33,695 bases of DNA from Clostridium sp. (GTDB lineage: Bacteria > Bacteroidota > Bacteroidia > Bacteroidales > Bacteroidaceae), in the NCBI GenBank assembly GCA_023663705.1, contig JAMPGY010000026.1:1-33695 (forward strand), given 5' to 3'. The notes under the pieces are model-generated. The model saw nothing but the letters and a program-made list of their open reading frames with translations, was not told where the DNA came from and did not search any database. Below are positions 10,835 to 16,269 of the stretch, one piece after another; position 1 is the stretch's first letter; every line of letters begins with the position of its first letter. The translations under genes were made by a program, and so were the position numbers.

Positions 10835-12352
10835 TTAATCCTGAATCAAGTTCTTACCGGTCATGTCGGCAGGCTGCTCCAATCCCATAATGTGGAGGAT
10901 AGAAGGAGCCACGTCGGCCAAGATACCGTTCTCCACTTTAGCCGCCTTGTTGGCCGTCACGTAGATGAAAGGAACGGGGTTGAGCGAATGAGCCGTGTTG
11001 GGCGTACCGTCTTCGTTGATGGCATTGTCGGCATTGCCGTGATCGGCAATGATGATGGTCTCGTAGTCGGTAGCCTTAGCTGTCTCCACCACTTCCTTCA
11101 CACATTCATCCACCGCCTTCACGGCCTTCTCAATAGCGCCGTAGATACCGGTGTGACCCACCATATCGCCGTTGGCGAAGTTCACCACGATGAAGTCGTA
11201 TTTGTTCTCCTTGATGGCAGCCACCAGCTTATCCTTCACCTCATAAGCACTCATCTCAGGCTGCAGATCGTAGGTTGCCACCTTGGGCGATGCCACAAGG
11301 ATGCGCTCCTCACCTTCGTAGGGAGTCTCGCGTCCGCCGTTGAAGAAGAAGGTCACGTGGGCGTACTTCTCTGTCTCGGCCGTGTGCAACTGCTTCAATC
11401 CCTTGCCGGCTATGTATTCGCCCAATGTATTCTGCACGTTCTCTTTCGGGAAGAGGATGTGCACACCCGTGAAACTGGCGTCATAAGGAGTCATGCAGTA
11501 GTACTGCAGACCGGGAATCGTCATCATGCCCTGCTCCGGCATATCCTGCTGAGTAAGCACTACGGTGAGTTCCTTGGCGCGGTCGTTGCGGTAGTTGAAG
11601 AAGATGACCACATCACCCTCCTTGATGGTTCCGTCCACCGTGGAGTTATTAATAGCCTTGACAAACTCATCGGTCACGCCTTCGTCATAAGACTCCTGCA
11701 TAGCAGCCACCATATCCGTGGCCTGCTTTCCTTCACCCTTGACTAACAAGTCGTAAGCCTCCTTCACACGCTCCCAACGCTTGTCACGATCCATGGCATA
11801 AAAACGACCGATAATGGAAGCTATCTTGCAGCCGGTCTTGTCACACTCGGCCTGCAACTGCTCGATAAAGCCCTTTCCGCTCTTGGGATCGGTATCACGA
11901 CCATCCATGAAGCAATGAACAAAAGTGTTCTCAACGCCGTAGGTCTTGGAAATACCGCACAATGTAAACAGATGATCAAGAGATGAGTGAACGCCTCCGT
12001 TCGAGGTCAGCCCCATCAAATGCACACTCTTGCCGTTGTTCTTGGCATATTCGTATGCTGAAACGATTTCGGGATTCTTAAGGATGCTGCCGTCCGCACA
12101 GGCACGGTTAATCTTCACCAAGTCCTGATATACGATACGACCTGCACCGATATTCAGGTGTCCCACTTCGGAATTACCCATCTGACCGTCGGGCAAACCC
12201 ACATTTTCACCGGATGCCTGCAATTGCGAAACCGGATAGTTCTGTGCCAGATAGTCCATATAAGGAGTAGGCGTATTGAAGATTACGTCTCCCTTGCCAT
12301 GACTGCCGATGCCCCAACCGTCGAGGATCATCAAAAGAGCTTTCTTTGCCAT
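10835..12352 (-). CDS. gpmI: 2,3-bisphosphoglycerate-independent phosphoglycerate mutase
   Basis: This glycolytic enzyme interconverts 3-phosphoglycerate and 2-phosphoglycerate using two metal ions, usually Mn. The 505-residue length is normal for the cofactor-independent (alkaline phosphatase superfamily) type. ILDGWGIG (residues 9-16) supplies a metal-binding Asp at D11. [17 protein letters not shown] contains the phosphoserine nucleophile S61. [14 protein letters not shown] lies in the phosphotransferase insert domain. [12 protein letters not shown] and [10 protein letters not shown] provide the remaining metal ligands. The gene has its own promoter, begins just downstream of the inverted-repeat promoter region and is closed by a terminator. 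It appears monocistronic. Confidence 0.97.
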
Positions 12353-12389
12353 AAATATTCTATTTTTTAAAGATTAGACTTTTCATGCA

Positions 12390-12397
12390 CAAAGTTA
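12390..12397 (-). promoter_or_regulatory. Probable -7 element of the gpmI promoter
   Basis: The minus strand reads TAACTTTG, a match to TAnnTTTG, 37 nt upstream of the gpmI ATG. No convincing -33 TTTG is seen at the expected distance. The 12398-12546 stretch upstream is AT-rich and shows no gene. Confidence 0.5.
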
Positions 12398-12546
12398 GGA
12401 ATATAAATCGAGAAATCGATTTTCACCCGTCTAAAAAAACATAACAGACAAAGCGTCGATTGCAAAATGTAGAGATTTCATAACCATCCTTTTACACAAC
12501 AACAAACTCTACCCCATAATGATGCATGATGCTTAGGAGAGTTAAA

Positions 12547-12741
12547 CATCTCTTATGAAGAGATGCGCAGTTTTTGTAAGTTGTTGGTAATTAGTAAAAC
12601 ATCTGTTTATATCGTTAGGCTTTCGCGTTGTTTTGTATGCTGTTGTAACTTTGTGATAATTTATTTTTTTAGATTTTTTGCTTAAATTCAATTTATTATA
12701 TACCTTTGTCGTGTTAATGTCATATCTCTTCATAAGAGATG
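12547..12741. repeat. Promoter segment flanked by 18-bp inverted repeats (candidate invertible element)
   Basis: The left copy CATCTCTTATGAAGAGATG (12547-12565) and right copy ATCTCTTCATAAGAGATG (12724-12741) are reverse complements over 18 bp. They enclose about 159 bp. Each copy is itself a pair of 7-bp arms, ATCTCTT and AAGAGAT, around a 3-bp centre that reads ATG on the left and CAT on the right. The asymmetric centre therefore gives the two sites opposite orientation. The enclosed DNA holds a near-consensus promoter pointing to 12773. This fits the layout of an invertible promoter, but twin operators for a dimeric regulator would look similar. No recombinase gene lies in the window. Confidence 0.75.
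12677..12708 (+). promoter_or_regulatory. Promoter of the 12773-14897 envelope operon
   Basis: TTTG (12677-12680), exactly 20 nt, then TACCTTTG (12701-12708) match the Bacteroidetes consensus on the plus strand. Transcription would start near 12714, so the right-hand inverted repeat would form a hairpin in a leader of about 59 nt. A second, weaker box, TAACTTTG, is at 12646-12653 with TTTC at 12621-12624. Both lie inside the inverted-repeat-flanked segment. Confidence 0.75.
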
Positions 12742-12772
12742 GACAAGTAAGTATCATTTTAAAACACTACGT

Positions 12773-13585
12773 ATGAAAAAAATTCTTTTCACTGCACTGC
12801 TCTCACTTTGCGCAGGCATGTCGGCAACCGCCCAAATCACAACAGGCACCCCCTCTGCCAAACATTTCAAAACCGGCAACCGCGCACAAAGCGGAGATTT
12901 CGGTATCTATTTGGGCATGAGCAGCAACATGTTCAAAAACCTCACAGATAAAGATATTAAATTTGAGAACCCGATGCCCTTGATCAATCTGAAATATATG
13001 ATTACCGACAATTGGGAAGCCCGCGTGGGTCTGGAATTCTCCAAAACCCGTGAAACCGTAAAAGGAGATCAATTCATGGACGAAACAGACAACAATGGAG
13101 AACCGGTTGGAACGGAAGCCAAATATAAAATTGTAGAGGCTGACAACCGAATCACCCCGGGTATCGCTTATCACTTCAGCAAACACAACATCATTGATGT
13201 ATATGCCGGTGCCGAAGGATTATTAGGCTGGAAGAGAAATTCAAATTACGTTACTATTGACAACGACGAAAACAGCACAAGAAAAGCATCTTGCCAGTTC
13301 GGTGCCGGTGCATTCATCGGTCTGCAGGCTTATATCGGCAACCTGCCATTAGCCATCGGTGTGGAATATGGCCTTTCCACCCTGTGGGAGTCCCGTTTGC
13401 GCTATAAGCAGACAAGCACCGACGGAGAAGGCAATGAACAAACCAGCTATACAACCAATGCGGAGTTACTTCCCATGCTAGGTGCCGCCGGCCAACTTCC
13501 TGAAAGCGCATTTGAAAACATGAAAGCCACACGAGGGACTATCGGCAATAAATTCGCCATCACATTGACTTATTTCTTCAAATAA
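12773..13585 (+). CDS. Predicted outer-membrane beta-barrel protein
   Basis: A 270-residue secreted protein. The signal peptide (MKKILFTALLSLCAGMSATAQ) is cut after about residue 21. The rest alternates polar and aromatic/hydrophobic residues in strand-length blocks: FGIYLGMSSNMF, MPLINLKYMITDNWEARVGLEFSK, RITPGIAYHF, IIDVYAGAEGLLGW, FGAGAFIGLQAYI, PLAIGVEYGLSTLW. It ends KFAITLTYFFK, a C-terminal aromatic-rich strand as in outer-membrane barrels. Size and pattern suggest an 8- to 10-stranded barrel, but no specific family is recognised. It is the first gene of a three-gene unit; a lipoprotein gene starts 7 nt after its stop codon. Its promoter lies inside the inverted-repeat segment, so its expression may be switched on and off. 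Confidence 0.8.
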   Translation: MKKILFTALLSLCAGMSATAQITTGTPSAKHFKTGNRAQSGDFGIYLGMSSNMFKNLTDKDIKFENPMPLINLKYMITDNWEARVGLEFSKTRETVKGDQFMDETDNNGEPVGTEAKYKIVEADNRITPGIAYHFSKHNIIDVYAGAEGLLGWKRNSNYVTIDNDENSTRKASCQFGAGAFIGLQAYIGNLPLAIGVEYGLSTLWESRLRYKQTSTDGEGNEQTSYTTNAELLPMLGAAGQLPESAFENMKATRGTIGNKFAITLTYFFK

Positions 13586-13592
13586 TTAAAAC

Positions 13593-14006
13593 ATGAAATA
13601 TCTAAAATACTTATATCTGTTATCCGGTGTTCTCCTGCTTGCCGGATGCGGAACCATAAAGAACGAGTATACATATGGTCCGGAAGTCAACCGTTTTTAT
13701 ATGAGCGACCTGGTATATCTGGGTGAAACGGAAATCGAAGTCAGCTACAGCTCATACTTTGGTTTACTTAAAAAGATACATACAGTAAATGGTAAGGAAT
13801 ACGATTCCGCACAAAAACAGCACGTATATTTGGGCGAAGGATTCAAGACCTACGGACTGAACAAAGCTGCTTACAAAGTATTGGAACAATTTCCTGAAGG
13901 ACGGTATTTTAAAGTCGTACGACGCACCAAAACCAAAGACCGCCTATTCTTAGGAGCCGAAACACAAGTAAAAGCCCTTGTCCGCGTATATAAATATAAA
14001 AATTGA
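13593..14006 (+). CDS. Small predicted lipoprotein
   Basis: A 137-residue protein with a type II signal peptide, MKYLKYLYLLSGVLLLAGC, with lipidated C19. The residues after the cysteine (GTIKNEY) are not acidic, so it lacks the surface-export signal of Bacteroidetes lipoproteins and probably faces the periplasm. The mature part has short strands and many Lys/Tyr/Val residues (DLVYLGETEIEVSYSSYFGLLKKIHTVNGKEYD, RYFKVVRRTKTKDRLFLGAE). No domain is recognised. It starts 7 nt after the barrel protein gene and 57 nt before the next lipoprotein gene, from which a strong hairpin separates it. It may be an accessory or partner of the barrel protein. Confidence 0.75.
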   Translation: MKYLKYLYLLSGVLLLAGCGTIKNEYTYGPEVNRFYMSDLVYLGETEIEVSYSSYFGLLKKIHTVNGKEYDSAQKQHVYLGEGFKTYGLNKAAYKVLEQFPEGRYFKVVRRTKTKDRLFLGAETQVKALVRVYKYKN

Positions 14007-14017
14007 TTTTCCCAACC

Positions 14018-14056
14018 TGAATCAACGGGGAGGAACCTTACATCCCCGTTGATTCA
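14018..14056 (+). other. Perfect 14-bp intercistronic hairpin
   Basis: TGAATCAACGGGGA (14018-14031) pairs perfectly with TCCCCGTTGATTCA (14043-14056) around an 11-nt loop. It lies between two genes of the envelope unit and ends 7 nt before the next ATG. No T-run follows, so it is unlikely to be a complete terminator. It may stabilise the upstream mRNA or tune translation of the downstream gene. Confidence 0.7.
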
Positions 14057-14063
14057 CACATAC

Positions 14064-14897
14064 ATGAACATGAGACATTATTTTTCAATACTCTCCATAT
14101 TTCTCGCCGCCTTATGTCCCATTTTACACGCCTGCGATGAAGAAGACGAGCCCGGAGATCCCATATTCATATCCACCGATATCATGGGAACAACCAATGT
14201 CTACAGCAACACCTATCAAAGGATAAAGATCGAAATCAACAGTTGCGACACTGAACTTGCACGAATGGTCATCAGTTCGTACGACAATCTGAGGGGAAAC
14301 ATCAATCTGATAGACTCCGTACTGAACGGGAAAAAACTATCCTACGAATTTCTGTACAAGGCTCCCATGTTGCCCAACGATTCCATCACTGTCACCCTGA
14401 ATATCTCCGCATCCGATAAAAACGGATATACACAAAAAACCTCGCGCAAGTTGCTTATATTGGCCAAAGACTACAGGCTGGAAGAACTGGCAGGCATTAC
14501 GTTGTATACAAATGAAATCAATGATCACCCCAACGGAATCTACCTTGAAGAAATGCGTCCGCTTATCGTCTCAATGGCAGATTCGGCCACAATAGATATC
14601 TACGCATATCTGGACGCAAATACTCCGGAAGTACTTACGCAAGAATGGCGAAGCAACACAGATATTTATTTTGCACGAGCCAATCAATTTGATTACGCAA
14701 ATGCCACCAACCGCTCCGTGACAGAAGCATTTGGCAATGCCATAGCCAACCCTCGCATCAGCAGAATATCCAAAGATGATATTATATTGATAGGTAGAAC
14801 AAACAAGGCCATCGGAGCGATTAAAGTAGTACAGCTTTATGATGATCCCGGCATTGAAAACGACAGATACATTATCAATATTAAAAAGATTAATTAA
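14064..14897 (+). CDS. Predicted surface-exposed lipoprotein
   Basis: A 277-residue protein starting at ATG 14064 (MNMRHYF) or 14070. A TTG further upstream at 14049 falls inside the hairpin stem and is unlikely. The signal peptide ends in ILHAC, with lipidated C24, followed by DEEDE. An acidic stretch right after the cysteine matches the lipoprotein surface-export signal described in Bacteroidetes, so the protein is probably displayed outside the cell. The mature part begins with an Ig-like or cadherin-like sandwich (TNVYSNTYQRIKIEINSCD, SYEFLYKAPMLPNDSITVTLNISASDKNGY). The remaining 130 residues are unrecognised. It ends the three-gene unit and is followed by a terminator-like hairpin. The base composition is AT-richer than in the neighbouring housekeeping genes. 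Confidence 0.75.
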   Translation: MNMRHYFSILSIFLAALCPILHACDEEDEPGDPIFISTDIMGTTNVYSNTYQRIKIEINSCDTELARMVISSYDNLRGNINLIDSVLNGKKLSYEFLYKAPMLPNDSITVTLNISASDKNGYTQKTSRKLLILAKDYRLEELAGITLYTNEINDHPNGIYLEEMRPLIVSMADSATIDIYAYLDANTPEVLTQEWRSNTDIYFARANQFDYANATNRSVTEAFGNAIANPRISRISKDDIILIGRTNKAIGAIKVVQLYDDPGIENDRYIINIKKIN

Positions 14898-14931
14898 CCG
14901 AGTTGTCAAAACTAAAACATTAACTTTTTTA

Positions 14932-14961
14932 GAAGCCCGAGCTTGTGAAAGTCCGGGCTTC
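14932..14961 (+). terminator. Terminator-like hairpin ending the envelope unit
   Basis: GAAGCCCG (14932-14939) pairs with CGGGCTTC (14954-14961) around a 14-nt loop, 34 nt after the last stop codon. The following sequence, CCTTATATT, is only weakly T-rich. It lies between convergent genes and may serve both directions. Confidence 0.6.
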
Positions 14962-14994
14962 CCTTATATTCCGCCCCAATCCCAACACTTTCCA

Positions 14995-15300
14995 TTATCG
15001 ACGTCCACATCGCGACACAGCCACAATAAACCAGCCTAACACCAGAAAACGCATAGGCAGAGAAAACACCACAGGAAAAACAAGAGACAAAAAAGCCACC
15101 TGCGCATGCAGCAACCTTAACGTGCGCAACGGACTCACCCGCTCTTCCAACAGACGAGAGTAGCAACAAGAGAGCTTTAACAACAGGCGGTTGTGAAAAA
15201 CGGAATTTTTCAGTCCTTCGCATACCAAAGCCCAAAGACCGGCCATCTTGTCGGCCGAAGTCAAGTTCACAGGGATAGTCATTTCTTTTTTCATCGTCAT
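14995..15300 (-). CDS. Small hypothetical membrane protein
   Basis: A 101-residue protein beginning MTMKKEMTIPVNLTSADKMAGLWALVCEGLKNSVF (ATG at 15300 or 15294). The middle is basic and leucine-rich with two cysteines (LKLSCCYSRLLEERVSPLRTLRLLH). The C-terminal third is strongly hydrophobic (VAFLSLVFPVVFSLPMRFLVLGWFIVAV), which suggests one or two membrane segments, and it ends in SRCGRR. I do not recognise a family with confidence. It lies 60 nt downstream of the WYL regulator on the same strand. A perfect dyad and a weak CATCTTTG box sit in that gap, so it could be co-transcribed with, or controlled by, the regulator. Confidence 0.55.
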   Translation of the reverse strand: MTMKKEMTIPVNLTSADKMAGLWALVCEGLKNSVFHNRLLLKLSCCYSRLLEERVSPLRTLRLLHAQVAFLSLVFPVVFSLPMRFLVLGWFIVAVSRCGRR

Positions 15301-15344: not shown

Positions 15345-15361
15345 GTGTCAGTCTATGACAC
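15345..15361. promoter_or_regulatory. Dyad between the WYL regulator and the small membrane protein gene
   Basis: GTGTCA (15345-15350) and TGACAC (15356-15361) form a perfect inverted repeat with a 5-bp centre. It abuts the WYL stop codon and lies about 45 nt upstream of the next start. It could be an operator or an mRNA hairpin; there is no T-run. Confidence 0.35.
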
Positions 15362-16269
15362 TAATCAAACTTTTTTGTTAAAAGAGATACTTTTTCTTTC
15401 AGATATTGCTTGAATTCTTGCGGAGCCTCTACCTCCACGTCCTCAAACACCCCCAATACAAAACGGGCCACACCGGTAAAACTACATACCTCTGTCCGCA
15501 ACAACCAATGCTCCGGGCCATCGGCCACCAGTCGAGCCGCACTCCCGGGATACTCCTCACGAAGCAAGTTTGCAGCCAATCGCCCCAGACGCAATGTCAC
15601 CTCCGTGCGTTCCTCGCCACTAAAACGGAACAGATCGGTATACACCGGACGATGGTCGTCCTCATGATCCCAAAGCAGATCCAGCAGTTCCACACGACCG
15701 ATGCGTGTCACCTTGAATGTCTTGTTCATCCGGCTGGACGGTTCGTAACATCTTACTTCGTTATTATTGCTCAGAAAAAGATAAGGTTCTACCACCCGGT
15801 CGCGAGCCTGCCGGCTGCTGGATGAACTATAGTCGTGCAACACCACCTTGCGACGGTCGCGGATAGCCTCATAAAGAGCCTGCAGATTGTCGGCCAGCTG
15901 CAGGTCGGCCTCTGTCTCGTTGACAATACCGAAATCGTAAATCCGCTCTAACTTACGGCGCAACACACGTGCCTGAACATTTGTATCGGCCAAAGTGTCG
16001 AGCACATAACGCAATGTGAGTGCCTCATCATCGGTGAAGTGCACCAAACTTGAAATCTCCCGGAAAAAAGGTGAGGACTTATCCAGACGATATATGTTGC
16101 CGTCCTGCCTCGCCACCTCAAACCCCATATCACGAAACAATTCGAGATAGCGGTACAGTGTGCGGCGACTCATCTCGAGTTTAGCACACAATTGCTCCAG
16201 CGTATAAGTTCTGTTCTGTGTGAGCAATATCATCAGGCGCAGCTGCCTTTCAAATTTCCCGAGTTCCAT
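15361..16269 (-). CDS. WYL-domain transcriptional regulator
   Basis: A 302-residue cytoplasmic regulator. The N-terminal 60 residues form a DeoR/HTH_11-type winged helix (LRLMILLTQNRTYTLEQLCAKLEMSRRTLYRYLELFRDMG). The WYL domain occupies about 135-215 (RKVVLHDYSSSSS...VVEPYLFLSNNNEVRCYEPSSRMNKTFKVTRIGRVELL), followed by a WCX-like C-terminal domain (about 220-300). WYL domains bind small ligands or nucleic acid and occur in many local regulators; the ligand here cannot be deduced. It starts 26 nt after the rnhB stop codon and is followed 60 nt later by a small membrane protein gene with a dyad in the gap, its most likely nearby target. Confidence 0.88.
   Translation of the reverse strand: MELGKFERQLRLMILLTQNRTYTLEQLCAKLEMSRRTLYRYLELFRDMGFEVARQDGNIYRLDKSSPFFREISSLVHFTDDEALTLRYVLDTLADTNVQARVLRRKLERIYDFGIVNETEADLQLADNLQALYEAIRDRRKVVLHDYSSSSSRQARDRVVEPYLFLSNNNEVRCYEPSSRMNKTFKVTRIGRVELLDLLWDHEDDHRPVYTDLFRFSGEERTEVTLRLGRLAANLLREEYPGSAARLVADGPEHWLLRTEVCSFTGVARFVLGVFEDVEVEAPQEFKQYLKEKVSLLTKKFD

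Follow-up and report, generated by a model that had tools for sequence, protein, structure and literature searches.

A likely invertible promoter before an outer-membrane barrel operon and its tyrosine recombinase-linked relatives in a probable Paraprevotella

Bacteroidales are known to switch surface genes by promoter inversion, as a first, sequence-only reading of the locus studied here had noted, in agreement with Tsr-type and other published systems. In Bacteroides fragilis, BF2766/Tsr19 is a tested case in which one enzyme acts on both a local and a distant promoter (PMC4747536), and the distant promoter, IVp-II, adjoins the housekeeping operon groES/EL without controlling it (PMC4747536; PMC3090145). 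TAnnTTTG is named as a promoter element in the same two papers. In B. thetaiotaomicron, the S-layer/OmpA and capsular polysaccharide (CPS) invertons carry the repeat CCGTTACCTABVRAGTAAC, and GTTAC...GTAAC repeats are reported for this species and B. xylanisolvens (PMC12118408). On integrative elements, class 2 invertible promoters stand before resistance genes, and their hosts include Paraprevotella xylaniphila (PMC8748976). We examined a 33,695-nt stretch of DNA (hereafter, the window), contig C18 of a 2.74 Mb, 43-contig assembly (96.41% complete) whose genus is very probably Paraprevotella. We regard its positions 12547–12741, with high confidence, as an invertible promoter (inverton) that is flipped in trans by a tyrosine recombinase of a family encoded on contigs C7 and C41 (the C7/C41 family), and that switches an operon headed by an outer-membrane beta-barrel gene.

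Two sites in the window, 12547–12564 and 12724–12741, face each other across 159 nt with arms that are complementary at 18 of 18 positions, and they are the sole inverted pair reported within 12000–13200. In each, the arms are palindromic and flank an asymmetric 3-nt centre, which is ATG in one and CAT in the other. These repeats are very probably crossover sites; by repeat anatomy and site family, the left one is CATCTCTT-ATG-AAGAGATG (12547–12565, + strand) and the right one its inverted copy (12724–12741, − strand), which reads ATCTCTT-CAT-AAGAGATG on the + strand. With up to three mismatches allowed, the 19-nt site has three matches in the window (two being one place read on both strands; shuffles expect 0.01), all confined to 12547–12565 and 12724–12741. 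The segment between them (12566–12723, 158 bp, + strand) is taken to be invertible from flipped orthologues of other family segments. It carries a match to a Bacteroidales-type promoter on the + strand (12677–12708), in which TTTG (12677–12680) and TACCTTTG (12701–12708) are separated by N20 and which faces the barrel operon, i.e., is ON. Counted from the outer end of the site core, the TACCTTTG box ends at 30 nt, and a second box within the segment, TAACTTTG, is more distant from the site. The sequence-only reading was thus exact about the facing 18-bp repeats and their spacing, and its palindromic arms with an ATG/CAT centre and its TTTG-N20 promoter aimed at barrel and lipoprotein genes were borne out.

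The locus shares with the tyrosine-recombinase invertible promoters of Bacteroidales its facing short inverted repeats around a promoter and the matched centres of its two sites. It is like the Tsr19 system in that IVp-II lies beside groES/EL without controlling it, as the window inverton lies beside gpmI, but the species and loci are different, and the comparison made here is one of layout. The B. thetaiotaomicron invertons likewise have palindromic arms, a short variable centre, an integrase/tyrosine-type invertase nearby, and surface-protein and CPS operons as targets; their arms are GTTAC...GTAAC, whereas those of the window family are ATCTCTT...AAGAGAT. Many promoters served by one invertase, with ON/OFF phase variation of the surface, also describe the Mpi and polysaccharide (PS) promoters of B. 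fragilis (PMC4747536, PMC12632263), where the enzyme is a serine recombinase; the genome of the window has no match to PF00239. The inverted repeat (IR) groups of PhaseFinder-type surveys (PMC11892184) include short-IR Bacteroidota invertons with a Bacteroides-type promoter, which is unable to drive the tyrosine invertases located close by; their likeness to the ATCTCTT-N3-AAGAGAT invertons is drawn from this description and not from a repeat logo. Class 2 promoters, too, are invertible promoters beside an invertase gene and are reported from the same genus, but they belong to mobile elements with resistance genes, again compared by description and not by repeat motif (PMC8748976). Among the literature matches listed on inversion in Paraprevotella, the genus was named only in PMC8748976, once, as a host of this class. 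No AAGAGAT/ATCTCTT motif was found for a Bacteroidales invertible site in the published text among the matches listed, those for ATCTCTT being judged by title; this is weak evidence of novelty, because text does not cover logos in figures and supplements. The kind itself is already known, namely the Tsr-type invertible promoters of Bacteroides, and the window locus is a further member of it.

The sequence-only reading had suggested looking for more copies of the site near promoters and for an unlinked recombinase, and both were found in the same genome. TCTCT-N5-AGAGA occurs there at 12 places, versus 2 for the reversed pattern. Four full pairs are present (C7:182/349, C17:7054/7208, the window pair on C18, and C41:61609/61770), and a fifth, C42:92667/92842, has one arm base off. 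In 5/5 pairs the centres match when inverted, yet they vary among loci. A TAnnTTT[G/A] box lies near one end of each of the five segments, being TAnnTTTG in all except C17, where it is TACCTTTA. Unpaired sites are located at or near contig ends (C7:1–15, C21:29045–29059 of 29063, and C27:119–133). The match at C22:117518 has a GC-rich centre and was rejected as a chance occurrence.

Two tyrosine recombinase genes directly adjoin such pairs, C7:391–1593 (− strand; PF00589, 25.8 bits) and C41:61825–63024 (− strand; PF00589, 34.9 bits, over the 27.1 cut-off), with the site pair downstream in both cases and the gene 3′ end facing it. The two proteins are 47% identical over nearly their full length and keep the R, K, R-H, G-H and Y motifs, which we take to be those usual in tyrosine recombinases. 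A third relative (C16:185–1387, 39% identity) has no such pair in the 8 kb examined. As assembled, the promoters at C7 and C41 face the recombinase 3′ end and are OFF for the opposite neighbour, which is a BACON/fn3 surface-type protein at C41 and is cut off by the contig end at C7. The candidate enzymes for the window pair are those on C7 and C41, and perhaps that on C16. No serine recombinase (PF00239) was matched in this genome, which at 96.41% completeness might have had such a gene missed. An Mpi-type serine invertase regulon was set aside on this result, the congeners not having been searched for one.

The window repeat belongs to a site type that is linked to tyrosine recombinases well beyond this genome. 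The GTDB species collection was scanned with the C7 protein, giving 164 loci, of which the best 80 were analysed for an inverted TCTCT-N5-AGAGA pair (one mismatch allowed) within 800 bp downstream, counting only loci with at least 450 bp of downstream sequence. Such a pair was found downstream in 33 of 67 loci, versus 0/72 upstream, 0/64 far downstream and 0/3350 in block-shuffled sequence, and the 5-nt centres were reverse complements in all 33. Phocaeicola vulgatus ATCC 8482 (L128) is among the loci with a pair. The remaining 13 loci end too soon downstream, and 7 of these show at least one site. Among congeneric recombinase loci, 8/28 have an exact inverted pair (up to two mismatches), always downstream of the gene, and in 4 of these 8 the arms have clearly drifted. 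Of the congeneric recombinases, the one closest to that of C7 (in G006) is followed directly downstream by a pair centred on CAT/ATG, as in the window. A close recombinase (at least 330 bits, a limit set after seeing the table) occurs in 13/13 genomes with strict sites and 2/5 without, which is suggestive only, as kinship and completeness differ. The bases outside AAGAGA (72/80 loci plus three own loci; 8 dropped for short or interrupted matches) gave no assignment of the window site to C7 over C41.

Many switches of this type appear to exist in the genus, the window inverton being one. In 18 congeneric genomes TCTCTTNNNAAGAGA was found at 127 sites, versus 6 for the reversed control; it is present in 13 of the 18 and reaches 28 sites in G013. 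Sites were listed in full for nine genomes (106/127). Here, neighbouring sites 100–450 bp apart have 3-nt centres that match when inverted in 44/44 pairs, six of which come from three triple-site loci of G015 that contribute two pairs each; 85/106 sites are in such pairs and 21 are not. A total of 9/98 sites are no more than 100 bp from a contig end, versus 0.49 expected (8 sites on contigs of unknown extent were left out), an excess that mixed orientations would cause. The geometry is also conserved: among 31 tabulated invertons, the window included, site-to-site distances are 153–211 (176 in the window), and 28 have a TAnnTTTG box; relative to the outer end of the site core, the nearest box ends at 26–30 nt in 21/28 and at 47–51 nt in 7/28. 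The window inverton, with its box at 30 nt, fits this pattern. Sites at contig ends offer a cheap assembly signature of active inversion, and two contigs of the window's own assembly begin or end at recombination sites (L012 on C7, 1–15; L044 on C21, 7046–7060), which is also true of several contigs from congeners.

Both orientations of this site type occur in nature, at loci other than the window. Comparison of the 700 bp downstream of 34/80 recombinase genes, picked by room and likeness, revealed segments reversed between sites with the outer bases running forward (L060/L062 and L058/L062, 188 bp, 75.5%; L062/L073, 199 bp, 76.4%), along with L061/L065, L064/L065, L065/L073 and L054/L060, among others. 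Few separate events underlie these reversed pairs, which do not count as independent, and further pairs have the same orientation. For ten orthologous invertons of the genus, compared between G013/G015 and G017/G010, the two flanks together fixed the relative orientation; two more rows were not counted, one because it lacks the left flank and the other, in the same orientation, because it is a cross-pair. Four of the ten were flipped between colinear flanks (L154/L210, 92.7%; L162/L204, 92.5%; L163/L212, 83.5%; L172/L214, 82.8% over only 64 bp), and six were not.

Support is therefore direct for the anatomy, the site family, the matched centres, the recombinase linkage elsewhere and the natural inversion of other members, and several observations weigh on the other side. 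The window segment is known in one orientation, ON, from one assembly, with the contig unbroken across it. The window inverton has no orthologue in 17 congeners, where the search gave three short matches, that in G005 being another inverton (L135) with the same centre, and four weak barrel homologues in other genomes have no site in the stretches examined; a flip is thus not visible by comparison. Nor did a 53-base stretch of the segment match any viral contig exactly. The recombinase matches of this genome are all on contigs other than that of the window, which was not searched separately; the C7 protein falls just below the PF00589 cut-off, and NCBIfam matches of the genome's recombinases are to Xer/integron-type models only, far below their cut-offs. 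Under the definitions used, 34/67 relatives and 20/28 congeneric loci lack the inverted pair, so that the family is not uniform in its specificity, or its sites have diverged or lie elsewhere. Finally, G007 and G011 have a close recombinase and no strict site, with a diverged pair in G011.

Part of this would suit a former inverton that is now locked ON, with its sites kept and the right enzyme absent, divergent or unexpressed. The single assembled orientation and the unbroken contig, whereas C7 and C21 of the same assembly end at sites, agree with such a state, as does the lack of a recombinase linked to the window inverton. We nevertheless consider it unlikely, as the arms are perfect over 18 bp, the centres are matched, and two full-length family recombinases lie beside sites of the same type in the genome. 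Still less probable, and to our minds very unlikely, is that a dimeric regulator binds the palindromes as twin operators and acts on the promoter between them, with no inversion. Each site is a good palindrome, the pair straddles the promoter, and the window copy is seen in one orientation only. However, operators would not account for centres that vary among loci and nevertheless agree, when inverted, in each pair (33/33 recombinase loci; 44/44 genus pairs), for the linkage of the sites to tyrosine recombinases, or for the flipped orthologous segments. The variable but matched centres similarly disfavour leader hairpins or terminators of two divergent transcripts, a reading that deserves scarcely any credence: the left site with its T-run scores terminator-like on the + strand and the right site would lie within the expected 5′ leader of the ON transcript, but Rfam has no match in 12300–13000 at E up to 1, and hairpins have no need for the same ATCTCTT and matched centres at unrelated loci. 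A riboswitch was also set aside, there being no Rfam match in 12300–13000.

Under the favoured reading of an invertible promoter, a tyrosine recombinase of the C7/C41 family, encoded on other contigs, would act in trans on the ATCTCTT-N3-AAGAGAT sites, and recombination between the two would invert the 158 bp between them. As the sites face each other and their ATG/CAT centres match only in inverted register, the expected product is an inversion and not a deletion. In the assembled orientation, TTTG-N20-TACCTTTG would read into the barrel/lipoprotein operon (ON); once inverted, it would point at gpmI and the operon would lose this promoter (OFF). We infer that the window copy does flip, via the C7 or C41 enzyme, and that no second promoter serves the operon. 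The divergent gpmI gene (10835–12352, − strand; PF06415, PF01676), which encodes a cofactor-independent phosphoglycerate mutase and toward which the promoter would point when OFF, has a possible −7 box of its own, TAACTTTG (12390–12397, − strand; noted by eye), outside the invertible segment. The main expected effect of inversion is hence loss of the barrel operon; of the earlier proposal that inversion turns the promoter toward gpmI and silences the operon, the silencing stands as the main effect, and the gpmI side is weaker.

Nine neighbours, chosen from ORFs taken beside each segment of the genus invertons, were scanned with Pfam and are possible targets. They include two NusG-type (UpxY-like) proteins, OmpA, a two-component sensor, DUF3575, DUF975, a PD40 repeat protein, and BACON proteins, one with an M6 peptidase and one with an fn3 domain. 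We tentatively propose, without holding it to be probable, that Paraprevotella uses one recombinase family and a near-fixed TCTCTT-N3-AAGAGA site for genome-wide promoter switches (the richest genome seen has 14 pairs; genes near the switches are of the capsule-type NusG, OmpA, two-component, BACON and barrel kinds), in which the 3-nt centre might be the address that decides which sites recombine. Were it so, recombination could also take place between loci with a common centre, with rearrangement of the chromosome as a result. With site, enzyme and centre in hand, a simple pattern suffices to list the invertons of the group, and the role of the centre in partner choice becomes directly testable; for promoter inversion in Paraprevotella and other Bacteroidales, the site now has a clear consensus and a family of candidate enzymes is at hand. 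For the window locus, the prediction is that only part of the population makes the barrel and the two lipoprotein-like surface proteins.

The same site type precedes UpxY/NusG-like genes in congeners at L135 (3013–3236) and L163 (1655–1880), and capsule-type loci in the genus may accordingly be switched by a tyrosine recombinase; L135, in G005, has the ATG/CAT centre of the window, with its promoter facing away from the NusG-like gene. Another inverton (L161, 3013–3204) lies before a sensor of the two-component type that contains Reg_prop and HisKA domains, and phase variation may hence extend to a whole regulon. In the window's own genome, the inverted pair on C17 (L043, 7052–7225) has GG-extended arms (CCTCTCTTGGTAAGAGAGG) and lies before a DUF975 membrane protein, and the unpaired sites on C21 and C27 carry the same GGT centre. 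The promoter of the fifth inverton, on C42 (L047, 8666–8858), faces away from an ORF that is truncated by the contig end and whose start resembles, by eye, a restriction-modification-type methylase.

The operon predicted to be switched begins with the outer-membrane beta-barrel protein (12773–13585, + strand, 270 aa; PF13505, 34.9 bits, cut-off 28.7). It continues with a 137-aa protein (13593–14006, + strand) and a 282-aa protein (14049–14897, + strand, from a TTG start, with an ATG at 14064), whose N-termini are lipoprotein-like (LLAGC and ILHAC, respectively; lipoboxes noted by eye) and which have no match in Pfam or NCBIfam. A hairpin scan placed a weak terminator-like hairpin after the operon (14939–14960, + strand); such hairpins are not in excess in 12300–15100 (2 versus 2.6 in shuffles). 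Beyond the operon, a gene on the − strand (15361–16269) encodes a WYL/WCX-domain helix-turn-helix regulator.
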